Shown: positions 47,291-64,000 of the stretch, one piece after another
Layout: each line of letters starts with the position of its first letter
Numbering within the stretch: the first letter of the stretch is position 1
Origin: Sinohyriopsis cumingii
Lineage: Eukaryota; Mollusca; Bivalvia; Unionida; Unionidae
Assembly (NCBI GenBank): GCA_028554795.2
Contig: JAPYKE020000276.1
Coordinates: 123,501 to 187,500 of the forward strand
Direction of reading: 5' to 3'
Length of the DNA: 64,000 nucleotides
Notes under the pieces: generated by a model
What the model was told of the DNA's origin: nothing
Seen by the model: only the letters and a program-made list of their open reading frames with translations
The model's database searches: none
Made by a program: the position numbers and the translations under genes

Positions 47291-47368
<78 letters not shown>

Positions 47369-47409
47369 GATATATGCATATATATATATGTATATATATC
47401 TATCTATAT

Positions 47410-47506
<97 letters not shown>
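47291..47506. repeat. (TA)n microsatellite
   Basis: About 215 bp of nearly pure AT dinucleotide with a few GT, GA, GC and CT interruptions around 47361-47430. It directly abuts the left end of the Polinton-type element. Its Tyr-Ile ORFs are meaningless. Confidence 0.97.
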
Positions 47507-47508
<2 letters not shown>

Positions 47509-47517
47509 TAGTGAAGT

Positions 47518-47741
47518 GGGTCACCCTAGGGACAATGGAAAGTCCACTCAAAACACCTCTGGGTCACTCTAGGGACAATGGAAATTTAACATGGAGAAAA
47601 ATCGTGGGTCACTCTAGGGACAAGGGGAATTAGCATTACATGGGAATAGAGTTTGGGTCTGTCTAGGGACAATAAAGTTTGGGTCACTCTAGGGACAAGG
47701 GGAATTTAACATAGAGTTTGGGTCTGTCTAGAGACAAGGGG
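47518..47741 (+). repeat. Left subterminal repeats
   Basis: Six imperfect copies of GGGTCACTCTAGGGACAA (variants GGGTCACCCTAGGG, GGGTCTGTCTAGGG and GGGTCTGTCTAGAG) start near 47518, 47561, 47606, 47654, 47680 and 47720 at irregular 26-48 bp spacing. All are in the same orientation. They are probably part of the element's terminal repeat and may be host- or element-protein binding sites. Confidence 0.8.
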
Positions 47742-47761
47742 AATTGAATATGGGATTTTTT

Positions 47762-47806: not shown

Positions 47807-47852
47807 AAGGGGTAGGCAATTGAAAGGCTATCTCTTTTCGAGAAATATGGGT

Positions 47853-47868
47853 GGCCCTGAAAAGGGCC
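47853..47868 (-). terminator. Histone-type 3' stem-loop 1 (for the gene at 47890-48468)
   Basis: On the minus strand this reads GGCCCTTTTCAGGGCC: a six-base-pair stem with a TTTC loop, as in animal replication-dependent histone mRNAs. The flanks also fit: CCAAA just before and ACCCA just after. About ten bases further, CGAAAAGAGATAG is a plausible histone downstream element for U7 snRNA. It starts 22 nt after the stop codon of the gene, as in histone genes. Inferred role: SLBP- and U7-dependent cleavage without polyadenylation. Confidence 0.85.
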
Positions 47869-47889
47869 TTTGGGTTTCTTCTTCTTCTT

Positions 47890-48468
47890 CTAACTCCTTA
47901 ACTTGTTCCACCAAGTCCTCACTTTTTCCATTATTCCTTTCTTCTTCTTTTTCTCCTCTGGCATCCAGTCTGGATGGCCCAAGGCTCTAAACTTTTCCTG
48001 GACTTTCATCCAATTCTGGTTTAGCCTCTCGAACTCTTCCTTTTTCTTTTTGTTTTCTTTTTCTTTTCTTTCTACATTCCAAATGTCTTTTATTATCTTG
48101 ACTTGTTTGCTCATCACTTTCCTCATCATCTCCTCTGCTTTCATCATTTGATTTAAACCCCATTTCACATAGGACCACTCAGTCCACTCTTTTAAAAAAC
48201 ACCTCACTTCAATAGCATAATCAAGGGCCTCTTTCAGTTTACCTACTTTCACATAGTCAAGTTTTATGAAACCTCTTAATTTTTTAACCTCCTCTTCAAT
48301 CATGTCCTCAATCAGATCCCTGGCAAGTTTTAGACTCGTCACTTGACTTTTGACAAAGTCCTTAGTAACTTCATGCATCCACTCCTTCTCTAGCCTTTCC
48401 ACCACATAGGCTGCATCTGTCATCCAGTACCAACTATCCTTTAGCTCATTAAATAGTTCAATACTCAT
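47890..48468 (-). CDS. Helical charged protein L1 (192 aa), element left-end gene
   Basis: No known family recognised. The 192-residue protein is almost entirely helical in appearance, Lys/Glu/Trp rich, with a basic C-terminus (EEKKKKKG, then WWNKLRS). Two internal repeats are visible: residues ~45-62 (SLKLARDLIEDMIEEEV) resemble the gene at 49743, and residues ~75-125 repeat a KLKEAL...VR..L pattern. ATG at 48468 lies ~50 nt downstream of a TATA box (48517-48524), and a histone-type stem-loop follows the stop by 22 nt. Codons and frame look intact. A role in nucleic-acid or virion-core binding is only a guess. Confidence 0.75.
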   Translation of the reverse strand: MSIELFNELKDSWYWMTDAAYVVERLEKEWMHEVTKDFVKSQVTSLKLARDLIEDMIEEEVKKLRGFIKLDYVKVGKLKEALDYAIEVRCFLKEWTEWSYVKWGLNQMMKAEEMMRKVMSKQVKIIKDIWNVERKEKENKKKKEEFERLNQNWMKVQEKFRALGHPDWMPEEKKKKKGIMEKVRTWWNKLRS

Positions 48469-48516
48469 TTTCTTGGGTTCTTCCGTAGAATGGTTCCGAC
48501 GACGAACGTGGTGGGT

Positions 48517-48524
48517 TCTTATAG
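48517..48524 (-). promoter_or_regulatory. TATA box of L1
   Basis: Minus strand CTATAAGA, ~50 nt upstream of the ATG. Immediately upstream lie two copies of a shared promoter element (48531-48555 and 48601-48624). Confidence 0.6.
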
Positions 48525-48530
48525 TGAAAG

Positions 48531-48624
48531 TGCGGACGTGAAGGAAAACATCCCCCTAAAACATAAAATTGATCTTACCTAGATCATGACCTAACAACGC
48601 GCGGACGTGAAGGAAAACATCCCC
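48531..48624 (-). promoter_or_regulatory. Repeated upstream element of L1 promoter
   Basis: The plus strand shows GCGGACGTGAAGGAAAACAT twice (48532 and 48601), ~70 bp apart, separated by AAAATTGATCTTACCTAGATC. The same arrangement recurs upstream of L2 (49312 and, degenerate, 49385). The core TCACGTCC on the minus strand is CRE/ATF-like. This is probably a shared activator site for co-regulated genes. Confidence 0.6.
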
Positions 48625-48857
48625 TACTTTCTCATTTCTTATAATAAAACCCAAACTATACTCTCCACATACGCTAAGAAACAATAAAGAAACCCATAAT
48701 CTACTATTCACACAAACATACCTGAGCTCTTACAAACACAAACACACAAACACATACCCTCACACTATCTTAAAAAAAGAGTTAGTGTTTATATTCACAC
48801 TACTCTACCTACACACATTGGCAAATTGATGGTTATTTCTTTTCTAGAGTATTGGTT

Positions 48858-48873
48858 AGCCCTGAAAAGGGCT
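48858..48873 (-). terminator. Histone-type 3' stem-loop 2 (for L2)
   Basis: Minus strand AGCCCTTTTCAGGGCT, same loop and a compensated A-T closing pair. It is followed by AACCAA and then CTAGAAAAGAAATA, a good purine-rich downstream element. It lies 164 nt after the L2 stop, farther than usual. Confidence 0.8.
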
Positions 48874-49036
48874 GTTTTTTTTGTTTTGAACTCCAGATGC
48901 ACCTATCTAATGGTTGCACCTTCCAGGCCTGGCGCCACACACACATCTTTGACTCCAGTCTCTTTTTACTTTTTGTCTTGAGAGTGCAGAGGCGGGATGA
49001 TTCGCTTCAGCACCCCAATCCTCTGTCTCTGGTATC

Positions 49037-49243
49037 TTATAAGTCATCCTCTGTCTCTGGTATCTTATAAGTCATCCTCTCTCCTATTTTCTTTTCCTCC
49101 TCTTCCCTCTCTCTTCTCTCCTCCTCTTCCTTCTGTATTCTTGCTTCTTCTACGATAGCCTCCGCTGATAGTTCATTTACTATGCGCCTGGCATATTCCA
49201 GGTGCATCTGGAGTTCTAACAGTTTCACTATTCTGATGTTCAT
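49037..49243 (-). CDS. Helical charged protein L2 (68 aa)
   Basis: ATG chosen at 49243 (MNIRIVKLLELQ); the frame is open six codons further but without an ATG. Residues ~12-30 (HLEYARRIVNELSAEAIVEE) resemble the helical motif of L1 and L3. A run of Glu/Arg (EEEERREREEEEKK) forms a likely coiled coil. A 28-bp sequence is duplicated at the 3' end (about 49020-49075). TATA (49298-49303) precedes the ATG by 55 nt and stem-loop 2 lies downstream. Function unknown. Confidence 0.55.
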   Translation of the reverse strand: MNIRIVKLLELQMHLEYARRIVNELSAEAIVEEARIQKEEEERREREEEEKKIGERMTYKIPETEDDL

Positions 49244-49297
49244 TCTTCTGGTGTTGATCAATCAACAAGGGTAGCTAGACTACCGAGCGAGTTTCAA

Positions 49298-49303
49298 TTT
49301 ATA
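49298..49303 (-). promoter_or_regulatory. TATA box of L2 with upstream repeated element
   Basis: Minus strand TATAAATTG. The block 49304-49371 is ~90% the same as 48524-48592 upstream of L1, showing duplicated promoters. Confidence 0.6.
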
Positions 49304-49695
49304 CTGAAAGCGCGGACGTGATGGAAAACATCCCCTAAAAACATAAAATTGATCTTACCTAGATCATAACCAAAAACAACAACGCGCGGACCTAAAAGAA
49401 ACACTCACTTTTTTATGCTACCCATCACTATTTTAATTTTTTTTTATAAATCACTTCAATAGACTATTTACATACGCAAAGCAATCCAATCTAACCCCCA
49501 AATCTACACCTCTAACAGCCCAAAAAAACCAAACATCATTTTAATCTACTATCCATACCAACGTACGTGAGCACTTACAAACACATAAACACATACCCTC
49601 ACATTTTTTAAAAAAAGAGTTAGTGTTTATTTTCACACTACTCTACCTACACACATTGGCAAATGGATAGCTATTTCTTTTCTAGAGTATTGGGT

Positions 49696-49711
49696 AGCCC
49701 TGAAAAGGGCT
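49696..49711 (-). terminator. Histone-type 3' stem-loop 3 (for L3)
   Basis: Minus strand AGCCCTTTTCAGGGCT, then ACCCA and ten bases later TAGAAAAGAAATAG. It lies 32 nt after the L3 stop. About 160 bp around it (49567-49724) are nearly the same as 48721-48888 around stem-loop 2. Confidence 0.82.
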
Positions 49712-49742
49712 GTTTTTTTTGTTTGCTATGGCAATCTTTTTT

Positions 49743-50114
49743 TTAGTTTCTAAGAATGCGATGTCCTCTGAGGATAGACTTTCTGGCGATAGGTCTGCTT
49801 CTTCGGAAAGAGAAGAAGAACTCTTTGGTGTCGATACGACAATCGACAAAGCCTCTGTCAGGTTCAGGTTGCTGCTGCTGCTGCTGTTGTTGTTGCTGCT
49901 GTTGCTGCTGTTGCTGCTGTCTCTGAAGTCTGTACTTCTCTGTCCATTCTTCTTTCTCCCTGTTCACTTCTTCTCTGAAGAGCTCTTCTATCAGGTCTTC
50001 AGTGACTTTTAGCATTCTCACATTCTCTATTTCTTCTGGCTTCGGTATCAGACTGTGTCTGACCCTATGCAAATTCACGTAGGCTTCGTTGAGTTTAGCT
50101 AGTTTGGAGCACAT
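49743..50114 (-). CDS. Helical poly-Gln protein L3 (123 aa)
   Basis: Start taken at the ATG at 50114 (MCSKLAKLNEAY); the open frame runs further but only through a C/G homopolymer. Residues ~27-48 (ENVRMLKVTEDLIEELFREEV) match the motif in L1. A CAG/CAA repeat then encodes about 17 Gln, followed by an Arg-rich tail. The 3' stem-loop is shared with L1 and L2, but no TATA like theirs is visible upstream. Function unknown. Confidence 0.55.
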   Translation of the reverse strand: MCSKLAKLNEAYVNLHRVRHSLIPKPEEIENVRMLKVTEDLIEELFREEVNREKEEWTEKYRLQRQQQQQQQQQQQQQQQQQPEPDRGFVDCRIDTKEFFFSFRRSRPIARKSILRGHRILRN

Positions 50115-50668: not shown

Positions 50669-51607
50669 TTACGAGTCGTGAGAGAACCGTTTTCGAAAAT
50701 GGAGTTTCACCGTGACGTTTCCTTTGGTGAATGGAATATTTTGTCCCAAATCTCCTTTTATAGTAATGTTGACTGTGTCCAAATTCGGCTTGCTGACAGG
50801 CAAATAGTGAGGATGGACAAATTCGCGGTGAACGTGGTAAGTGTTTCCACCTTCCTCGTCAGCGTTTGCGGCAGAATCCACTTTGAATGGAATGACACGC
50901 AGTAACGGCACGGAGGTGTGTCCCACCACGTTGTACTCCACCACATCAGAGTACACAAACATCAAATTCAGTCCTTGGTTCAGTTCTACCGGGGTAAGAA
51001 AATACTTGGCAAAAGTCTCGTTGTCGCCAATGATTGGTAATTCGGGTTTTTGTTCTACTTTCTTCCTCAGCTCCATGTCACCGCCCAACATGTCAAACAA
51101 TTCAGGACAAAATAAGAAAGACATCATTTTACGCCCCTCAGGAAATTTTATCAGGAAGCGACGAGCTGTTTTGTGGTACACCAGGGTGACGATACCTCTA
51201 TTGGCACTTTCCAAAGCTTTCAGAAACACGCCATTAAACCTGGTAGCTATGGTGTTGACCAAATGTTGACCACTAAAATAATAGCCTGGGGGAATGAACA
51301 AGTGATAGGTGGTGTACTTTTGAGTTTTTGTGGGAGGGGTTTTCTTGTCATATTTGCTATTGTCATCCATCCACTTTTGCACTAGCTCGTCATGAACTTC
51401 CACATCAAATTTATTTTGATTGGGAAGGACATTGAGGACTTGGGTCGGGTGAATCATTTCTACTAAAGCCACTTCCCAATGGGCTTCGTGATCTAAGGGG
51501 ATGGCTTGAGGTAATTTAGCCGTGTAACAGCACAACATGTTGTTGGGAAACACCTCCATGGAACTGTCACTGGGTAAGGTTAAGTAAAATTGGTTTTGGT
51601 GACTCAT
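50669..51607 (-). CDS. Capsid-like structural protein of Polinton type (312 aa)
   Basis: Begins MSHQNQFYLTLPSDSSMEVF and contains HWEVALVEMIHPTQVLNV, a signature common to a protein of invertebrate Polinton-type elements and their domesticated relatives. Length and beta-rich look suit a single jelly-roll minor capsid or penton protein better than the ~600-residue double jelly-roll major capsid; which of the two is not settled here. The frame is whole. The start overlaps the end of the next upstream gene by 4 nt (ATGA). Confidence 0.65.
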   Translation of the reverse strand: MSHQNQFYLTLPSDSSMEVFPNNMLCCYTAKLPQAIPLDHEAHWEVALVEMIHPTQVLNVLPNQNKFDVEVHDELVQKWMDDNSKYDKKTPPTKTQKYTTYHLFIPPGYYFSGQHLVNTIATRFNGVFLKALESANRGIVTLVYHKTARRFLIKFPEGRKMMSFLFCPELFDMLGGDMELRKKVEQKPELPIIGDNETFAKYFLTPVELNQGLNLMFVYSDVVEYNVVGHTSVPLLRVIPFKVDSAANADEEGGNTYHVHREFVHPHYLPVSKPNLDTVNITIKGDLGQNIPFTKGNVTVKLHFRKRFSHDS

Positions 51608-52025: not shown

Positions 52026-53136
52026 TCACTTCTTTTTATAGTCGATGACTTGCGAAGCGTCGATCCAAGAATCAAAACTGGGTGGATATCCTTTCCAACG
52101 TACTTTAACTTCTTTGACACGTCGTTTGCCCACTTTACGGGTTCCGCGTTCGAGAATGCTTTCGATGTCGTACACGTCGTCTTCTTTTTTGGTGACACGT
52201 TGTAACTCGGGCAAATAAAACGTTCCTTTGAGCACTTCTCCGTTCATGTCTTCCAATTTATAGACGGCAGGATGACGGCCATGCACTCGTCCAGTGACGC
52301 GAAACAATTCGGTCGTCCAGTTAGGTAAGTAACCTTTGTCGAAAGTGCGTTTGGTTTTGCCAATGCGCACCCAATCTCCTACGGCCAACACTCCACTTTT
52401 CTTGGGGACAGCCCTCGTCGGGGACGTACCAAACAGACGCTCAAACACCAACACTTCGTTGTCGGGAGTCACGTCTTGCGGGGCACGTCCGATGCTTCGA
52501 TGGTAGGATTGGTTGTACGCTTGCACCAGGTGCGGTAAGATGTCGATGTACTTCAGAGTGTGGTGATGCGTAAAATATTTCCACTTGCGTTCTTTCAAAG
52601 TGCGTTGAAAACGTTCCACGATGCTGGCTTTGGTTTCGGGATTCTCGGTGGTAAAAAAAATGAATGTCACGTTTCTTTAATTCTTTTTGGAAAGCTTGGT
52701 TCAGAAATTCGGTACCTTTGTCCGTTTGCCATCGAAGAGGGTGACGACCGCTTTGTTTCAACACCCGTTGCAGGGCTCGCACTAACTCGCTGCTCGATTT
52801 GGATGTCAAGGGCACGACCCAGGCAAATTTGGAAAAGACGTCGATGACACAAAACAAATATTTGTAGCCACGATTGTAGCTGGCCAAATGAGAGACATCG
52901 GCTAAATCGGCTTGCCATTGATGATCGATGCCTTCCACTCGGGTGCGACTTCTGGCAAACTTGCGTCGAATGGGTTTGTGTAAAGTGTAGGTAGCTTGTT
53001 CTTGTAACCATCGTTGCACTTGAGGTAAACGGAGACTTTTCAGTCGAGTTTTGGCAGCATGATACAATTTTTGAACTCCTGCGTAACCTGCAGGATGGGA
53101 GGGATCGTAGTAAATGCTGGCTAAGACTTTTTCCAT
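52026..53136 (-). pseudogene. Retrovirus-like integrase with C-terminal chromodomain
   Basis: The N-terminal part shows the usual Polinton integrase look (YYDPSHPAGYAGVQKLYHAAK, YTLHKPIRRKF) and rve-core features WQADLADV, YKYLFCVIDVFSKFAWVVP and WQTDKGTEFLN. The C-terminal part includes a chromodomain (VYDIESILERG, VKVRWKGYPPSFDSWI) that may steer insertion to modified histones. The gene would insert the element and make the target-site duplication. It looks broken, with about one break. Confidence 0.85.
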
Positions 53137-55304: not shown

Positions 55305-56048
55305 TTATGGGGAGTGAAATGAAGTCGAGGACGGAGACGTGTACAGGACAGGCCCTCCGTCTTGGCACCAGTGGTGAAACAAGTGGGTACGAAATCGCAA
55401 ATCCTCGGGAGTCGTAGGTTTCAAATCGACGAGTAAATAGGCGTGTGGCGTTTGAGTGGCATCGTCGTACGCCTGAGTCAGCCAAGGCGTTCCTAACTGT
55501 TTGGCTAAGACTTGCACTTGCGATTTATCTCGAGGGCTTTTAAACAAGACCACGTAATGCGCATTGAGACTGATGGTGCGATGGGCTTTACTTTGTTGAA
55601 ACAAATTTTGGGTGATGTAAACGACACTGGCATTACGGTGATGCCCTTTGCGCGTGAACCACAATTTAATTTCTTCTTCGTCTTCTCCTAACATGTCGTC
55701 GAAAATGACCAAATGGGTTTGATGGGAGTCAGAGACGATGCCGTCGTGTTCTTTAGGAATGCCTTCCACAAACACGATGGAATCGCCTTGACTTTCTCGC
55801 GAGAGGTTGTACGCCGATTGCCATTCTTTGTAACACCACACGATCCGTTGAGGTGGCCGATCGATCAAATGATGTTTATGTTCGATCAAACGTTTGACGA
55901 ATTCGGTTTTGCCTGAACCGCTAGGTCCAGCAATGAGCATGTTAAAGGGATGGCGAAGATACAAAGCCTCCCAACAGGCACGATCTAAGTGTTCGTCGAT
56001 GACTTTGACAGTAGAGGAAGAGGGAGCAGAGACAGCAGAGGTAGCCAT
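55305..56048 (-). CDS. Polinton packaging ATPase (A32/FtsK-HerA type, 247 aa)
   Basis: ATG at 56048 (MATSAVSAPSSS) preferred to the open frame above it because a TATA box lies 50 nt upstream. Walker A GPSGSGKT at residues 41-48, Walker B LVIFDDM at ~113-119, and a sensor-like YITQN at ~144-148 place it in the family that pumps DNA into capsids. Length is typical. Intact; head-to-tail with the basic protein gene. Confidence 0.92.
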   Translation of the reverse strand: MATSAVSAPSSSTVKVIDEHLDRACWEALYLRHPFNMLIAGPSGSGKTEFVKRLIEHKHHLIDRPPQRIVWCYKEWQSAYNLSRESQGDSIVFVEGIPKEHDGIVSDSHQTHLVIFDDMLGEDEEEIKLWFTRKGHHRNASVVYITQNLFQQSKAHRTISLNAHYVVLFKSPRDKSQVQVLAKQLGTPWLTQAYDDATQTPHAYLLVDLKPTTPEDLRFRTHLFHHWCQDGGPVLYTSPSSTSFHSP

Positions 56049-56644: not shown

Positions 56645-56869
56645 TTAAGGCCATTGAGGTGGTAAGTACTGATCGTAAAGAGTCCACAAAGAATCGGCTG
56701 GTAAACGAAATCCCAGAAAACAAGTCACTAAGACACACACCACTTGTCGTCCCAAATTGAATGGATACAGTTCTTGTAATAATTGATGGTAATGATCCAC
56801 GGTTTGAATATGGTCATTGAGTTCCTTCCACGGAATCTGTTCAATGATATGTGACATAATCCGTGGCAT
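56645..56869 (-). CDS. Unrecognised accessory ORF (74 aa)
   Basis: Begins MPRIMSHIIEQIPWKELNDH with a hydrophobic VVCVLVTCFLGF stretch. The upstream ATG fits the tight packing with the neighbouring LP-box gene (28-nt overlap of ends). No family recognised; it may be a fragment of a longer accessory gene with the membrane-anchored piece downstream. Confidence 0.35.
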   Translation of the reverse strand: MPRIMSHIIEQIPWKELNDHIQTVDHYHQLLQELYPFNLGRQVVCVLVTCFLGFRLPADSLWTLYDQYLPPQWP

Positions 56870-57338
56870 GGCAACTTGATTTTATAGTGTCCTTGTTTCG
56901 GAAGCAATAAAGGTAATTTCTAACCAAACATGTTCGTTCTCCAGTAGGGAATTTAAATGTTACATACTGTAACTGAAACGTCAGAGTTTGTCTAGATGTT
57001 TCGTCTTTTTCTAAGCGGATTCCATGTAACAAATGTTGGTAATCCTTTAACTCGTCTTCCTCAATACGTTGCAGTAAGTGAATCTCTAAGTAACCAAAAT
57101 TACGAACGTCTGGTCCATCATCATTCACAAATTGAAAGTGTTCAACAAGGTCTGACCAGTGAAAAAATTTCTGACGAATCAGTCCTCTTATACCATTCAG
57201 GTACCAGTGGTTAAAGATCTGGTGACGTAACGGATGCAATTGTTCTTTACGTTTGACTTGTATTTTCACCAGCTCTCGGTAAATCCTTTCTCTCAACTCC
57301 ACAGGCAAGGCACGAATGTTCTCTAGCAAAGTATCCAT
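56841..57338 (-). CDS. LP-box (F-box-like?) accessory protein 1 (165 aa)
   Basis: MDTLLENIRALPVELRERIY resembles the first helix of an F-box (LPxELxxxI). The rest is not recognised: FHWSDLVEHF and DYQHLLHGIRL correspond to similar stretches in the next gene. An F-box would recruit SCF ubiquitin ligase, a common strategy of large DNA viruses, but the match is short. The first ~50 codons are nearly the same as in the neighbouring copy. Frame intact. Confidence 0.5.
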   Translation of the reverse strand: MDTLLENIRALPVELRERIYRELVKIQVKRKEQLHPLRHQIFNHWYLNGIRGLIRQKFFHWSDLVEHFQFVNDDGPDVRNFGYLEIHLLQRIEEDELKDYQHLLHGIRLEKDETSRQTLTFQLQYVTFKFPTGERTCLVRNYLYCFRNKDTIKSSCHATDYVTYH

Positions 57339-57350
57339 GAATAGGTCATA

Positions 57351-57806
57351 CTAAATCCTCTTTGGTCTGACACAAGAAATGTACTGTTTGCACAGACATG
57401 GTTTTAATTCATTGTCGAATCTAAATCGTTTAGTCACTAATTTACACGTTACAATTCGTTCAGAAGTTTGTTCTTTCACCAAGTTGACATTGCGTACAAG
57501 ATGTTGGTAATTCGTTAACTCTTCCTCTGGAATTCGATGCAGTACGTTTACAATGTAGTAGATAGAATCGTCCATACCAAACCATTCCTTTTTAAAACCA
57601 GGGGGTCGATGATCAATGTCTGTCCAATGGAACACTTTCAACTCAATCAGTCCTTGTATAGCCTGAAGGTACCAGTGGTTCAAACACCGGTGACGTAACG
57701 GATGCAATTGTTCTTTACGTTTCACTTGTATTTTGACCAGCTCTCGGTAAATGCGTTCTCTCAACTCCACAGGCAAAGCACGAATGTTCTCTTGTAAAGT
57801 ATCCAT
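57351..57806 (-). CDS. LP-box (F-box-like?) accessory protein 2 (151 aa)
   Basis: Paralogue of the preceding gene, 12 nt apart end to start. Residues 1-40 differ at about two positions, while the remainder is only loosely similar (NYQHLVRNVNL, VLHRIPEEEL). Such a sharp change points to partial gene conversion or very uneven constraint. Confidence 0.5.
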   Translation of the reverse strand: MDTLQENIRALPVELRERIYRELVKIQVKRKEQLHPLRHRCLNHWYLQAIQGLIELKVFHWTDIDHRPPGFKKEWFGMDDSIYYIVNVLHRIPEEELTNYQHLVRNVNLVKEQTSERIVTCKLVTKRFRFDNELKPCLCKQYISCVRPKRI

Positions 57807-58233: not shown

Positions 58234-58605
58234 TTAATGTCTTGGTCCCACTAAGGGTAAGTAATGACAATTCGGTGACCATCGAGCATGTTCTACGTAG
58301 GCCGAATCTTGCGGTTCCCAGTGGTGAAGTGACACACCGCTACTGAAGCACTTGACTGTATCTCCTTCGCCCAAGTAGAAAAATCCGGCTCTGGCTAATT
58401 CTTCGGGGGTCGGTCCTCCCAGATACTTAGGCCATTTTCCTTTGAACGATTGAAGACGATTTTCAAAGTCGCAGTATTCCGACAAACGCACAGGAAACGA
58501 ATATTCGTCTTTCACAGGTTCGTTTCGATGAGGGTTGAGTGTCATGGCAGGAGTTTGCTCAAGGCTGGATGACATCCGTAGGGGGGTAGACGTGAAGGTG
58601 AACAT
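58234..58605 (-). CDS. BIR-domain (IAP-like) protein (up to 123 aa)
   Basis: From residue ~48: FENRLQSFKGKWPKYLGG, TPEELARAGFFYLGEGDTVKCF, WEPQDS and VEHARWSPNCHYL, the ordered signature of a baculoviral IAP repeat. A single BIR and no RING. IAPs block caspases or act in cell division (survivin), so this is a plausible host-derived anti-apoptotic accessory gene. Three in-frame ATGs (58605, 58575, 58545) are possible starts. Whether the zinc site works cannot be judged here. Confidence 0.8.
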   Translation of the reverse strand: MFTFTSTPLRMSSSLEQTPAMTLNPHRNEPVKDEYSFPVRLSEYCDFENRLQSFKGKWPKYLGGPTPEELARAGFFYLGEGDTVKCFSSGVSLHHWEPQDSAYVEHARWSPNCHYLPLVGPRH

Positions 58606-58896: not shown

Positions 58897-61800
58897 CTAT
58901 CGATCTTGCCTAGGGTTCCTTTTTATATACAGACCAATACCGACGTGACCGTACGGCAACGTAAAGTGATTGGGAAGTCTCACTCGCTTCTCGTACACGA
59001 TTTGATAGACTTTTTCCAAGGGTCGACTGACGATGTGGTGAGTGGGTAAACGTACAATCTTGTTCGGTTGATAGGTGGTCACTTTAAAGTGTCCATCCTC
59101 TCCCGATTGCAAGGCTTCTTTCAATACCCCAAAGTTGACCACTCGACTGGTACGATAATTCAGAGTCAGTCCTTTCACTTTGCACGTCGTGTGCACTTCT
59201 CCTTGTTTGTCCCGGTATTTGTAGCCGTAATTTTTGGGACCGCCACTGACGAAACTTAGAATCTTGTCGTCGGGATGCTCGTCTGTCCAGGCTCCTAAAC
59301 GGTCTCCTTCGATGTCAGGGTGATGTTGAATCGGGTGATGGACGTAAATGCAACTGTCCGTGTCAAAGTACTGGACGCGTTCTTCTAACAGTTCTAAAGC
59401 TTCGTACAATTTTAAGCGAGCATGAGTTGTCACGTAAGCGGCAATGATGACATTTCCAAAAGGGTCGTCTTGTACAAAGTCCAGATCTTCTTCGTAATTG
59501 ACCAAGATCAAATCCTCTCGAACGACGTCCACGTGTTTCATATATTTGGTTTTGTCGTGAATCATCTGGAAGTAGCGGGAAGGGTCTGTCAAATATTCCG
59601 TCTTGGGTAAACACGGTCGTTGTGCCATTTTACCCCACAAGCAATTTAACATCACTTTGGCAAACGATCGCCTGCCTTCGTTTTTCTCGATGTGGTCTAA
59701 AGAGATGCCTTCTTGTTCGTAGTATTTCTCTTTGAATTGTATTTGGTCTTCGGGAGTGTGACACCAGGACGGATAGCCGCTGGCTTCTTGCTTCAGTTTC
59801 AAAAAGGCATCCACGTAGTCGGCGAAAATGCCTTTCTGACTGGGGTCACCCTTGTGGTATTGTTGTGTCTTGGGAAAGTGGCAAATTTCGTACACTTCTA
59901 ACAATTGGTATCCCATGTCCAGAGCTTTGAACAATTCTACGCTGACCCAGGTTCCCGTCAAGGCCCGTTCTTCCTGGCTGTGCTGACAAGGTTGGTCTTG
60001 GATGCACGTTTCGGCACAAGTACGGCACAATGGAAACATCAGTTTGCCTTGACAATGGTGAGGTAAGACGGGATGGTATAGGTTCGTGGGAGGCAAAACT
60101 TTACACTTGATCAAGCCTTCGTATTGTCGAATGTTTTTCAGGTCGATGTGTTCCGTCAGCAATTGTGGGTGCCCTACAGGAAAGCGACAATATTTGCACA
60201 CGTAGGGATACAGCGAACACACGTCCAAGTATTTGATTTCTTCTCCTTTCTCTTCGTCGGCTTGGTACAGCAAACAGGTGGCATTGGTCCTTCCTCCGTA
60301 CAAACTATCCCTCGGGTTCAGCGGGTCCATGAACTGGTAACTTTCGACGAGGCGTTTAAACTCGGGATCGGTTTTCATACGGTGATCGTACTCGTGTACC
60401 CACATTTCCACCACTTGGTATCCTTCCTGTTCTAACTTTAGGCGTCGCTGACAAGTGTCCTGGTACAAGTCTTCCATGGTTCGTTGCAAAAACTGATTTT
60501 TAGTGCCACGGTCAGGGTAACAGACGGGACATCCGTGAAATAAGCAACCGTTAAACTCGTACACGATCTTGGGGTTTTCTAAGTCCCAGCCATCGACCGA
60601 ATACGTTCCGATGGTCTTTTCGCCCCCTCCGTTGCGGCCATGCTGAATCCACTTGTCTTCCTTGTCGCACAAGTAATGTAACCAACGTAGGGCTTTGACC
60701 GAGTATTGACGTTTGACAAAGTGGGTCGTTTGAGGGCTAATGACAGCCACGGTGTTTTCAGGCATGAATCGTTGTCGATACACTAAGGAACACGCTTTGG
60801 CAATGGTGCAAGCTTCTTTCAAAGGATCGACCCCTCCGTGTTCCATGAACAGTTCTCGAAATTTTCCACAGCAACGCCGTAAAATGTCCACGTCGGAACG
60901 ACAATACTTTAGCATTTCTTCCTGAATGTCGAAAGGGTCCGAGGCGTGAGCCTGGTACCAAGCGTAGAAAGCTTCTCGTTGTTCGGTACGCATGTTGTAG
61001 GGGTCGTAATAGTGAGCCTCAGGCAAATGGGGTAGAACGGCGTGTTGATTGGCTTCCGTATTGAAAAAGTGTGGAAAGTACCCTTTAGCCATTTCTGTCA
61101 TTCCAAACGTTTTAGGCATTCGACTCAAAGGCATGGCCAAATAGCTCATCGAATCTTTAAACTGCACTTGTCCCACTTGCATGAAAATGATTTTGGCTCC
61201 GTTCAAAGTCACTTTAGGACGTTCGGTGCCTTGTTCCGTATAGTACCTGAAAAGAAACTGTCCATCGTATCTGGAGAAATTGTGAGCCATCACCGTGGCA
61301 TGACGATGACAATCTCCGTAACGTTCGATGTCCTCTTGGCTCCACGTCTTGTCGATGGGGTCTAAAACCCATTGGGCAAAATCGGCTAACGTGTTCGGTC
61401 CCCGAAAGATTTTTTCACGCCCTCCAGGAATCTTGCTGCAGTGAGGGCAATAACTGAAGATAGGTTCTTGAATGCACTTCTCGCACGCTCGATGAGCCAC
61501 GCAGAAATTAGGGATGTGAATGCCGGTCTCTTGCATGCATTCGAAATCGAAAAAGATGAAATTGCCTTTCTTCTTTTGACCGTCCTCTTTCTCTGGTGGG
61601 GGTTGGCATTTTTGCACGTAACATTCGTGTTCCAAGTCCACGATGTGGTGACAAATGTGACATTTTTTCTTTCCTCGACATACGTGTGCCTTGGCATTGT
61701 TGGCAAGTATGCCTTGTCCACATGTAGGGCACAATCTCAGGAGTTGACAAGCACATTTCTTCTGTGAACCTTGTGTTTTCAAATGTTGCTGATAACAGGT

Positions 61801-62961
61801 AGGGCTGACAAACGTGCGCAGACAAGTTGAACAAGGCACTGGTTCTTCGCTCAGACAGGGTGGAGAGGCCAAACATCCTGAGCATTTCCATCCACAATGT
61901 TTGTGTTGCTCTCGATTATTATAACCATAGTCACATTTCTCACAATAATAAACATATCCCAGGAATCCGGTGATACTGGTAATGGTATCGAAATGGTCAT
62001 CGTGATAATAGACATGAATGTATTTTCCGTCCTTAAAATCTTGGCCTCGAAACAACAGAGGCCCACGCACTTCTTGAGGGTGAACTTTCAAGGTGTAGCG
62101 TGGAGCTAGGGCATCTTGCAATGTTTGCATCTCAGGAATGCCACAGGGTGTGTCTTTGGACAGGCCAGCTTGTTGCAACAGGAGTTCTGCTTCGTTTCGT
62201 TGTTTGGTTCGGTTCGATTTTCGAATGTTCTCCCAGGTTCTTTTCCATTCTGTCGTGTCGTTCTTGTTGGCATAGGTTCGTCCCACCACGATGGCACGGG
62301 CTAAACACATCTGGTCTTGAGGGTTGTTAATTCGGACGAGACTTGTTTTGGTGCTGCGAAGGTCGTCCACCAATAAGACCTTTTTGCGTCCAGTCCCTTG
62401 AGGAGGAGAGACGTGGGCCATTTTCAGTGTGGCTTTACCATCGGTGATGTCAAACTGGTCATTAGATTGTTGTACGTGTTGAATCTTGTCCATGACTTTG
62501 GAAGGGGTTAGTTCTGCGGGTCTGTTAAACTCGATCCAAACAGGGGATTTCAAACCGTCGTGATCTATGGATAGTGTCAAGCGATCGTCTTCTTTGGGCT
62601 GACATTGTCGCTTGAGTGCGGTGAGCAAAGAATCCCACATCTCGGTGATAAACCGTTCTGCTTTCTCTAAGGGTACGTCGGCCTTGAAATCTTTAAACTT
62701 CACCGTGTATTTGTAAGCCGTGGTTCTAAATTTTCTAGAGGAGCGCTTTTCCGTCTCTCGAATGGAATAGTATTTTTCAGGGTTGACTAAGGGTGGTGAA
62801 CTTGGTTTAGAGGTTTCAAATTCTGGTTCACTCATGTCCTCTTCAAAATCACTGGCATGAATTTGTGCCAAGATTTCAGCCCTGGTACGAGGCGATAGAT
62901 CATGTTTCTGCCTGTTACTTTCTTCTTCTTCTTTCTTCTCGAATGAATAGGATCGTTTCAT
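58897..62961 (-). CDS. polB: Protein-primed DNA polymerase B (1354 aa)
   Basis: Replicates the element from a terminal-protein primer. Order: unassigned N-terminus (1-330), Cys/His-rich zinc-finger-like region (~335-460; CEKC, CSGC, CPTC, CHIC), exonuclease motifs FFDFE (~471), HNFSRYD (~560) and YCRSDVD (~688), then polymerase motif A LDVCSLYP (~913), motif B KVMLNCLWG (~1104), motif C YFDTDS (~1200) and KVKGLTL (~1260). These are the hallmarks of protein-primed family B (DNA_pol_B_2). The frame looks whole and at full Polinton length. ATG at 62961, with a TATA box 49 nt upstream in a divergent promoter. Confidence 0.97.
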   Translation of the reverse strand: MKRSYSFEKKEEEESNRQKHDLSPRTRAEILAQIHASDFEEDMSEPEFETSKPSSPPLVNPEKYYSIRETEKRSSRKFRTTAYKYTVKFKDFKADVPLEKAERFITEMWDSLLTALKRQCQPKEDDRLTLSIDHDGLKSPVWIEFNRPAELTPSKVMDKIQHVQQSNDQFDITDGKATLKMAHVSPPQGTGRKKVLLVDDLRSTKTSLVRINNPQDQMCLARAIVVGRTYANKNDTTEWKRTWENIRKSNRTKQRNEAELLLQQAGLSKDTPCGIPEMQTLQDALAPRYTLKVHPQEVRGPLLFRGQDFKDGKYIHVYYHDDHFDTITSITGFLGYVYYCEKCDYGYNNREQHKHCGWKCSGCLASPPCLSEEPVPCSTCLRTFVSPTCYQQHLKTQGSQKKCACQLLRLCPTCGQGILANNAKAHVCRGKKKCHICHHIVDLEHECYVQKCQPPPEKEDGQKKKGNFIFFDFECMQETGIHIPNFCVAHRACEKCIQEPIFSYCPHCSKIPGGREKIFRGPNTLADFAQWVLDPIDKTWSQEDIERYGDCHRHATVMAHNFSRYDGQFLFRYYTEQGTERPKVTLNGAKIIFMQVGQVQFKDSMSYLAMPLSRMPKTFGMTEMAKGYFPHFFNTEANQHAVLPHLPEAHYYDPYNMRTEQREAFYAWYQAHASDPFDIQEEMLKYCRSDVDILRRCCGKFRELFMEHGGVDPLKEACTIAKACSLVYRQRFMPENTVAVISPQTTHFVKRQYSVKALRWLHYLCDKEDKWIQHGRNGGGEKTIGTYSVDGWDLENPKIVYEFNGCLFHGCPVCYPDRGTKNQFLQRTMEDLYQDTCQRRLKLEQEGYQVVEMWVHEYDHRMKTDPEFKRLVESYQFMDPLNPRDSLYGGRTNATCLLYQADEEKGEEIKYLDVCSLYPYVCKYCRFPVGHPQLLTEHIDLKNIRQYEGLIKCKVLPPTNLYHPVLPHHCQGKLMFPLCRTCAETCIQDQPCQHSQEERALTGTWVSVELFKALDMGYQLLEVYEICHFPKTQQYHKGDPSQKGIFADYVDAFLKLKQEASGYPSWCHTPEDQIQFKEKYYEQEGISLDHIEKNEGRRSFAKVMLNCLWGKMAQRPCLPKTEYLTDPSRYFQMIHDKTKYMKHVDVVREDLILVNYEEDLDFVQDDPFGNVIIAAYVTTHARLKLYEALELLEERVQYFDTDSCIYVHHPIQHHPDIEGDRLGAWTDEHPDDKILSFVSGGPKNYGYKYRDKQGEVHTTCKVKGLTLNYRTSRVVNFGVLKEALQSGEDGHFKVTTYQPNKIVRLPTHHIVSRPLEKVYQIVYEKRVRLPNHFTLPYGHVGIGLYIKRNPRQDR

Positions 62962-63095: not shown

Positions 63096-63602
63096 ATGGA
63101 AGAGACTAACCAAATCGAACGTTTCGTCAGAGCTTTGCGAGGGGTCATTAGAAAATTCTCTTCAGACCAACCCACGGACTACTCTCCTTCCTTTCGAGAT
63201 AAAAGTCAAGATACTTGCTATATCTGTCAGAAGAAAGGGCATTGGTCTTCAGAGTGTCCAGACCGTGAAAAAAGAAAAAAAAAACAGGGGCTAAAAAAGA
63301 CAAAAGTCAAGATACCTGTTATTATTGTAAAGAAAAAAGGACATTGGTCTCCAGATTGCCCAAAAAAGAAACAAGAGGAGTCAGAAAAAAAGAGGAATTC
63401 TTCAGAAGAAGAGAGGGATTCTTCGGAAGAAGAGAGGGATTCTTCAGAGGAAGAGAGGGATTCTTCAGAGGAAGAAGAGGAAGAAAGAAGACAATTCTAT
63501 TTACAAGAGGCAAAGAAACAGGAGAAGAAAAGAAGAAGGGAAGAAAATCAGGAGAAAGAAGAGGAAAAGACGGTGAAGAAATTTAAAAAACAGAGAGACT
63601 AA
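63096..63602 (+). CDS. Zinc-knuckle, Ser/Glu-repeat protein (168 aa)
   Basis: Only clear plus-strand gene of the element. ATG at 63096 (MEETNQIERF) chosen because the open frame above it covers the TATA box. A CCHC knuckle (CYICQKKGHWSSECP) is followed by a second, degenerate knuckle-like stretch (KKGHWSPDCP). Then come four tandem SSEEERD units, likely casein kinase 2 targets, and a Lys/Arg/Glu coiled tail. CCHC knuckles bind single-stranded nucleic acid, so a replication or RNA-binding role is possible. Confidence 0.65.
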   Translation: MEETNQIERFVRALRGVIRKFSSDQPTDYSPSFRDKSQDTCYICQKKGHWSSECPDREKRKKKQGLKKTKVKIPVIIVKKKGHWSPDCPKKKQEESEKKRNSSEEERDSSEEERDSSEEERDSSEEEEEERRQFYLQEAKKQEKKRRREENQEKEEEKTVKKFKKQRD

Positions 63603-63687: not shown

Positions 63688-63693
63688 AATAAA
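63688..63693 (+). terminator. Poly(A) signal of zinc-knuckle gene
   Basis: AATAAA 86 nt after the stop codon, in an AT-rich trailer; conventional polyadenylation is expected for this gene. Confidence 0.6.
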
Positions 63694-63853
63694 TTAATGA
63701 TATAAGGTAAGTGTCTTTGAGTTTTGATTTTAAAATAAGAACGTACACTCACGCACTCATACACAGACACGTACTATAAGGGTAAAATGGGTTGTTTTTT
63801 TTTTTTGAGTTATTGGCAAATTGAAATTGTATTTCTTTCCGAGAAATGTGGGT

Positions 63854-63869
63854 GGCCCTGAAAAGGGCC
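63854..63869 (-). terminator. Histone-type 3' stem-loop 4 (right end)
   Basis: Minus strand GGCCCTTTTCAGGGCC followed by ACCCA and CGGAAAGAAATA. It points away from the zinc-knuckle gene, so it would serve a minus-strand gene lying to the right (beyond 63870), which is not visible here. The segment 63740-63870 resembles the intergenic stretches near stem-loops 2 and 3 (ACA-rich, then TTGGCAAA). Confidence 0.8.
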
Positions 63870-64000
63870 TTTTTTCTTTATGGTTTAGGGGTGAGTTTAA
63901 GCAATCAACTTTAACTGCCTTAAGCCTTTGCCACGGCCAAGGCCTACTTCTGGACTGCGTAATGTTGATGATGATAATGATTGGGTTGAAATCACTAAGG
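63870..64000. other. Right edge, nothing assigned
   Basis: Short sequence with a small hairpin (GCCTT...AAGGC around 63923-63942) and a GATGATGATAATGAT run. It could be the 3' end of another gene of the element, or flanking repeat DNA. Confidence 0.3.

Follow-up and report, generated by a model that had tools for sequence, protein, structure and literature searches.

We analyzed a 64,000-nucleotide stretch of the genome of the bivalve Sinohyriopsis cumingii (assembly GCA_028554795.2, contig JAPYKE020000276.1, positions 123,501 to 187,500 of the forward strand; here called the window, with positions counted from its first letter). Its right quarter is a Polinton/adintovirus-like provirus, present as a broken copy, that encodes a type B DNA polymerase (PolB), an A32-like ATPase, an rve integrase and a chromodomain in two frames, a BIR protein, a zinc-knuckle protein and small open reading frames (ORFs). 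Three of its minus-strand genes, L1, L2 and L3, are each followed by a histone-type hairpin, with a 6-bp stem and a TTTC loop, and a fourth such 3′ end belongs to a gene, D, at the right edge. Judging from these signals and from promoter boxes like those of host histone genes, it is very probable that a Polinton/adintovirus-like family has put several of its genes under histone-gene control, through a 3′ end made of hairpin and purine element and partly through promoters. The genes and 3′ ends concerned are as follows.

47890..48468, minus strand: gene L3 (family B), 192 amino acids, predicted helical bundle, with 9 relatives at 49-57% identity
47828..47873, minus strand: histone-type 3′ end of L3, with hairpin at 47853-47868 and purine core AAAAGAG at 47832-47838 (Rfam RF00032, 42.5 bits)
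49037..49243, minus strand: gene L2, an interrupted frame with a 28-bp exact tandem duplication at 49018-49073
48833..48878, minus strand: histone-type 3′ end of L2, with hairpin at 48858-48873 and purine core AAAAGA at 48838-48843 (RF00032, 26.6 bits, E 8.6e-4)
49743..50114, minus strand: gene L1, 123 amino acids, Q-rich with an Arg-rich C-terminus, 88-97% identical in three sister pieces (L085, L086, L087)
49671..49716, minus strand: histone-type 3′ end of L1, with hairpin at 49696-49711 and purine core AAAAGA at 49676-49681 (RF00032, 31.2 bits, E 1.7e-5)
63830..63874, minus strand: histone-type 3′ end of gene D, with hairpin at 63854-63869 and purine core GAAAGA at 63834-63839 (RF00032, 40.0 bits)

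The purine core lies 14 nt from the stem in all four window hairpins, and the 3′ flank reads ACCCA in L3 and L1 and AACCA in L2. The L3 hairpin, CCAAA-GGCCCT-TTTC-AGGGCC-ACCCA, exceeds the 34-bit cut-off of the Rfam Histone3 model (RF00032) with an E value of 3.2e-9 over the whole window, as does the fourth hairpin. When both strands of the 64 kb were scanned for a 6-bp Watson-Crick stem closed by T-A around a 4-nt loop starting with TT, 10 matches were returned: the four histone-type hairpins and six whose stems consist of A and T alone. The four hairpins sit in a 66-bp repeat, of which the other three copies are 71-79% identical to that of L3. From the end of the ORF to the hairpin the distance is 31 nt in L1, 21 nt in L3 and 163 nt in L2. 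The body of gene D extends beyond the right window edge, and its C-terminus, PEVGLGRGKGLRQLKLIA, which is common to family D loci, precedes the hairpin. A preliminary description of this DNA had placed a hairpin and a purine element behind L1, L2 and L3 and had taken the L3 hairpin to fit the full histone consensus, CCAAA and ACCCA flanks included; the position scan and the Rfam scores bear out both statements. Its three sites are real, but it had overlooked the fourth, and of the three genes that it counted, all with hairpins, L2 proved to have an interrupted frame and to hold the tandem duplication. The AlphaFold2 model of the L3 protein is wholly helical (mean predicted local distance difference test score, 80.6), and a fold search with it returned no match at E ≤ 0.001.

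We compared these signals with one 8.35-kb unit of the host histone array (L084), which holds H3, H4, H2B, H2A and H1. Each of the five genes is followed by a Histone3 hairpin (35.0-39.4 bits) 27-38 nt past the stop, reading GGCCCTTTTHAGGGCC in four genes and GGTCCTTTTCAGGACC in H1, and by a purine core GAAAAG 14-15 nt after the stem (the 14 nt of H4 was read by eye; the script gave 3 nt from an earlier AAAAG match). The element genes thus share with replication-dependent histone genes the hairpin, the 3′ flank, the purine element, the spacing and the short distance from stop to hairpin. In mouse H2a, the downstream element that base-pairs with U7 has AAAGAG for its purine core, according to an excerpt of a paper on U7 (PMC7026596). 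For host H1, the best relatives with a name are molluscan, mostly bivalve, and the histone array has two unit spacings, of about 8,267 and 8,292 bp. Once low-complexity matches had been dropped, the longest stretches that the 16.5-kb element region shares exactly with the histone unit measured 24 nt and 21 nt (promoter), 17 nt (hairpin core) and otherwise 14-16 nt; two of the latter are hairpin cores, and two others (15-16 nt) are no longer than the longest match, 16 nt, between the histone unit and a control array stretch.

Searching the 2.9-Gb host genome with the Histone3 model, we scored 75 of 589,472 first-look candidates. All 75 exceed the Rfam cut-off, and all were assigned to four element gene families, 74 by a peptide motif upstream of the hairpin (A, 29; D, 23; C, 11; B, 11) and one further locus (L009) to family B by tblastn. 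No histone gene was left among these loci, on which histone models were not run, and because the host histone hairpins (35.0-39.4 bits) are absent from the set, it is no census. At the 44 loci with an intact ORF ending at most 60 nt before the hairpin (the cut-off used in the script), the distance from stop to hairpin is 7-47 nt, with family medians of 16-25; the other 31 have no intact ORF. The Pfam matches of L1, L2 and L3 at E ≤ 1 include no histone family, and for families A, C and D only the ORFs were read; the family A protein has an Arg-rich tail. At every family D locus (23/23) a zinc-knuckle ORF and PolB lie within 1.5 kb, and at the 52 non-D loci the 1.5 kb fetched shows any core element gene in 8 cases and PolB in 5. 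The A and D genes are arranged divergently, with start codons 217-231 bp apart in 26 of 29 A loci, and such loci therefore also show a partner hairpin that was not used for selection. One locus, L040, has a 332-amino-acid ORF with a protease-like start and an L3-like end, which suggests an internal deletion that fused two element genes.

The L2/L3-type genes also carry what is, by its sequence, a host histone promoter box, a feature new to this analysis that the preliminary description did not mention. The boxes in the window are these.

49310..49332, minus strand: H2B-type promoter box of L2, 23 nt identical to the sequence upstream of host H2B (24 nt in all)
49381..49401, minus strand: H4-type promoter box of L2, 21/21 nt identical to the sequence upstream of host H4
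48599..48621, minus strand: distal promoter box of L3, matching host H2B with 1 mismatch
48530..48552, minus strand: proximal promoter box of L3, with 2 mismatches and, near 48523, a TATA-like box after it

With one mismatch the 23-nt H2B box is also found upstream of host H1; an inverted promoter box with 4 mismatches lies upstream of host H2A. Across the genome, the H2B box (≤3 mismatches) occurs in the 1-kb upstream region of all 11 C loci and, counting L009, of 11 of 12 B loci, and a TATA-like sequence, defined by a loose pattern, follows shortly after it in 22 of 22 cases. It was absent from 685,293 mononucleotide-shuffled bases and present in the 1 kb downstream of 1 of 29 A loci. L1 carries it in two of the three sister pieces (L085 and L086). 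For the A-D intergenic region, a histone-like box was considered and rejected, the matches being merely 13-17 nt long (E about 0.04) at three loci. The promoter core, ACGTCCGC, is reminiscent of the HINFP (HiNF-P) site of mammalian H4 genes. HiNF-P recruits NPAT to H4 promoters, according to a review excerpt (PMC5706932). Histone-type promoters on some of the hairpin genes are a separate reason to infer replication-coupled expression, and they add the host promoter box and a TATA-like box to what L2/L3-type genes have in common with replication-dependent histone genes.

The 75 loci were selected by their hairpins and come from the scored fraction only, so that the conservation of those same hairpins proves nothing, and we used the unselected partner hairpins instead; these are linked to a well-preserved hairpin, which may favor younger copies, and related pairs are not independent. 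A partner hairpin is present at 70 of the 75 loci (all six pairs in 59, five in 10, four in 1) and absent at 5. Partner hairpins with ≤2 mismatches in 21 nt lie next to 26 of 29 A genes and 23 of 23 D genes, and with ≤4 mismatches upstream of 21 of 23 B and C genes, L009 among them. For sequence comparison an intact frame and a hairpin were needed, which kept 20 of 23 unselected A genes and 14 of 29 unselected D genes, in pairs with synonymous differences per site (dS) of 0.02-1.5. Among the A genes (150 pairs), mean dS is 0.67 and the nonsynonymous value (dN) 0.077; differences per site are 0.007 in the stem-loop, 0.054 in the purine core and 0.137 in the spacer. Among the D genes (91 pairs), dS is 0.10 and dN 0.043, and the corresponding values are 0.018, 0.000 and 0.150. 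By these figures the hairpin and the purine element look constrained, and the spacer does not. Median dN/dS over the 44 loci with intact ORFs plus window L3 (pairs with dS 0.05-2; the copies are related and the pairs not independent) is 0.135 in A (194 pairs), 0.345 in D (51), 0.338 in C (6) and 0.230 in B (3), indicating that the element coding sequences are under purifying selection. At the A-U first pair of partner hairpins, both sides are changed in 19, 2 have G-U and 5 are broken, with 12 broken pairs over all positions; because this A-U pair is mostly the inherited type of L1 and L2, it is weak evidence for compensation.

Sister copies and other Polintons extend the comparison. The homology of the window with L085 and L086 ends just upstream of L1, where the window has other genes and no capsid or protease ORF beside L1. 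A capsid-like ORF occupies that place in L085 and L086, and a protease-like ORF is whole in L085; L087 has neither. The names capsid and protease are tentative assignments from sequence motifs; the L085 ORFs have no Pfam match at E ≤ 0.01 and find homologous ORFs in L037 (32% identity, E 3e-45; 28% identity, E 1e-11). L037, a contig binned in a bacterial metagenome-assembled genome, encodes a Polinton-like PolB and an integrase whose chromodomain match falls just under the Pfam cut-off; integrase and chromodomain form one ORF there and occupy separate frames in the window (52026-53136). It also has a Histone3 hairpin of 35.8 bits, 28 nt past the stop of a C2H2 zinc-finger ORF, with a purine element at 14 nt. 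Some adintoviruses carry zinc-finger genes remotely similar to CTCF, as an excerpt of one paper has it (PMC11071296). A search of IMG/VR with the window PolB alone found no relatives, and one with a PolB alignment found five weak matches (23-26% identity), none with a histone hairpin above the Rfam cut-off. The Rfam scan of other Polintons that the preliminary description had proposed as a check came out divided, positive for L037 and negative for L036. Exact hairpin patterns occurred in 0, 0 and 1 IMG/VR contigs; the single match (L088), which falls within a long ORF on a GC-rich contig, reaches 21.3 bits and fits the model only up to the 3′ flank, and we took it as chance. A phage collection gave remote matches only, below 60% identity over at most 25% of the query.

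From the motifs, their placement, their likeness to host signals and their conservation, all of which are observed directly, we infer as the best reading that the element genes are expressed like replication-dependent histone genes, bound by SLBP, without poly(A) and in S phase. With histone-like signals at one or both ends of a gene, the factors most obviously placed to act on them are host SLBP, U7 and the transcription factors that serve histone genes in S phase. SLBP would attach to the hairpin of the element mRNA, the U7 small nuclear ribonucleoprotein would base-pair with the purine element located 14 nt further downstream, and the mRNA would be cleaved after the hairpin, left without poly(A) and stable in S phase only. 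The L2/L3-type genes, and L1 in two sister copies, may in addition use the 5′ box common to H2B, H1 and, in a second form, H4. Signals at both ends would confine the activity of these genes to the period of host DNA replication, in which replication or packaging of the element is possible, and the likely benefit would be expression during host DNA replication from mRNAs that vanish once replication stops. The preliminary description had likewise read the 3′ ends as tying the genes to host DNA synthesis, and its reading is supported by the host-like type and spacing of the signals, their occurrence in several families and their conservation in unselected genes. A role of L1-L3, A and D in the virion or in genome handling is a guess. 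We also regard it as reasonably likely that a virus-like lineage has adopted the histone program, promoter and SLBP/U7 3′ end alike, so that these would be the first protein-coding genes other than histone genes known to yield tailless S-phase mRNAs, possibly made in the histone locus body, and that the trick arose in, or spread to, more than one Polinton lineage.

Several observations weigh against this interpretation. In a 20-kb search the L1 (31.2 bits) and L2 (26.6 bits) hairpins fall below the Rfam cut-off, and both have A-U as the first pair and a 5′ flank ending in C instead of A; SLBP is reported to need two adenines in the 5′ flank for full affinity (excerpt of PMC10388802). The same flank C is found in four of the five host histone hairpins. 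An AATAAA at 49631, 45 nt beyond the purine core of L1, means that L1 could also be polyadenylated. The L1 hairpin keeps 5/6 pairs in L085, 4/6 in L086 and 6/6 in L087 and so decays in some copies; 11 of the 70 partner hairpins present have one or two broken pairs; and in D genes the stem-loop differences are no more than about fivefold under dS and 2.4-fold under dN. The H2B box is upstream of none of the A (0/29) or D (0/23) loci, nor of L1 in the window, so that mimicry at both ends covers part of the set. By tblastn, 44 of the 75 loci lack a core element gene in the 1.5 kb fetched, and of the two other Polinton contigs, one is positive, L036 having no histone hairpin.

Among other explanations, SLBP might serve stability or translation only, with the mRNAs still polyadenylated downstream and no real coupling to replication. 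The AATAAA behind L1, an ATTAAA about 220 nt past the D hairpin and an AATAAA downstream of the L037 hairpin would suit this, but neither AATAAA nor ATTAAA occurs for more than 500 nt downstream of the L2 and L3 hairpins, and the purine element is kept along with its 14-nt spacing, features that should bear on cleavage by U7 and not on binding by SLBP; we consider it unlikely. That a host histone repeat was recently inserted, or copied in by gene conversion, leaving hairpins without a role, would explain the sequence identity with host histone signals and is very unlikely: exact similarity is limited to motifs of 14-24 nt and widens nowhere along the single histone unit that was compared, the motifs end different gene families at 75 dispersed loci, and they differ far less than synonymous sites or the adjoining spacer. 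The inserted host repeat that the preliminary description had named as speaking against its own reading was not seen, the exact matches being hairpin cores, promoter boxes and matches of control length. We give hardly any credence to the hairpins as the element's own DNA-level or processing signals for recombination, termination or packaging; their position towards both element ends in the window fits such a use, of which we know no example at the DNA level, but they lie on the coding strand right after stops, in the divergent A/D pair as well, with histone flanks and a purine element that resemble host histone 3′ ends. That these are domesticated host genes is the least probable, for although median dN/dS is below 1 in all four families and 44 of 75 loci lack a core element gene in the 1.5 kb fetched, the 75 loci are dispersed, 31 of the copies have no intact ORF, D adjoins PolB in 23 of 23 loci, and two of the three sister pieces have capsid-like and protease-like ORFs next to L1.

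The element genes differ from each of the known systems closest to them. Unlike replication-dependent histone genes, they encode helical-bundle, Q-rich or Arg-rich proteins and no recognizable histone. Replication-dependent histone mRNAs are called the only known metazoan mRNAs of this kind in excerpts of two papers (PMC6303110; PMC10388802), and the papers cited here associate the SLBP/U7 3′ end with histones only. With Polintons/Mavericks and adintoviruses the element shares PolB, rve integrase, chromodomain and A32-like ATPase, and two sister pieces add candidate capsid ORFs and one of them a candidate protease ORF; it differs from them in its histone-type promoters and 3′ ends. Xeno-class adomaviruses with a "Histoid" gene are likewise animal DNA viruses with a histone connection, but theirs, as described in an excerpt of PMC11071296, is a gene remotely similar to histone proteins, whereas here the likeness is in regulatory signals. 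Among the matches listed in a search of titles and abstract starts of openly licensed literature, we found no report of histone-type 3′ ends in Polinton/adintovirus-like elements. If the interpretation is correct, a mobile element times its genes to host replication without cell-cycle regulators of its own, and its genes would provide natural material for finding out what in a histone gene suffices for S-phase expression. Because poly(A)-selected RNA-seq would miss such tailless transcripts, the activity of these elements may be underestimated.

The remaining genes and domains of the provirus are listed here.

52026-52247, minus strand: chromodomain, in a frame separate from the integrase (PF00385, E 2.2e-7)
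52441..53136, minus strand: rve integrase core (PF00665, E 6.6e-15)
50669..51607, minus strand: 312-amino-acid ORF, with no Pfam match at E ≤ 1 and no PHROGs match at E ≤ 0.01, tentatively penton-like
55305..56048, minus strand: A32-like packaging ATPase (PF04665, E 6.3e-8, above its cut-off)
58234..58605, minus strand: BIR (IAP-like) domain protein (PF00653, E 9.5e-22)
58897..62961, minus strand: type B DNA polymerase, 1354 amino acids (PF03175, E 8.8e-41), with best named relatives in bivalves
63096..63602, plus strand: zinc-knuckle gene, convergent with D (PF00098, E 2.2e-9), with its own AATAAA at 63688

The PolB, the rve integrase with chromodomain and the packaging ATPase of the Polinton/adintovirus definition are all found in the window. 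An excerpt of PMC11071296 includes in the adintovirus definition a PolB with an N-terminal OTU-like domain; the Pfam listing for the window PolB holds no OTU family, and this domain was given no further look. The right end of the provirus falls beyond the window, and of the 8,000 bases fetched from that region 5,000 are N. The zinc-knuckle gene contains 21-bp repeats rich in acidic residues and serine. To the left of the provirus, positions 1-45627 form a six-unit array (unit length about 7.65 kb, last unit incomplete) whose units are about 99.5% identical and hold one 88-amino-acid ORF each; its first 7.7 kb matched no Rfam family at E ≤ 0.5. At 47292-47755, close to the left edge of the element, an AT-rich microsatellite is followed by diverged repeats of about 43 bp. 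Within the element, two adjacent paralogous ORFs (56841-57338 and 57351-57806) are 85% identical over 203 nt.

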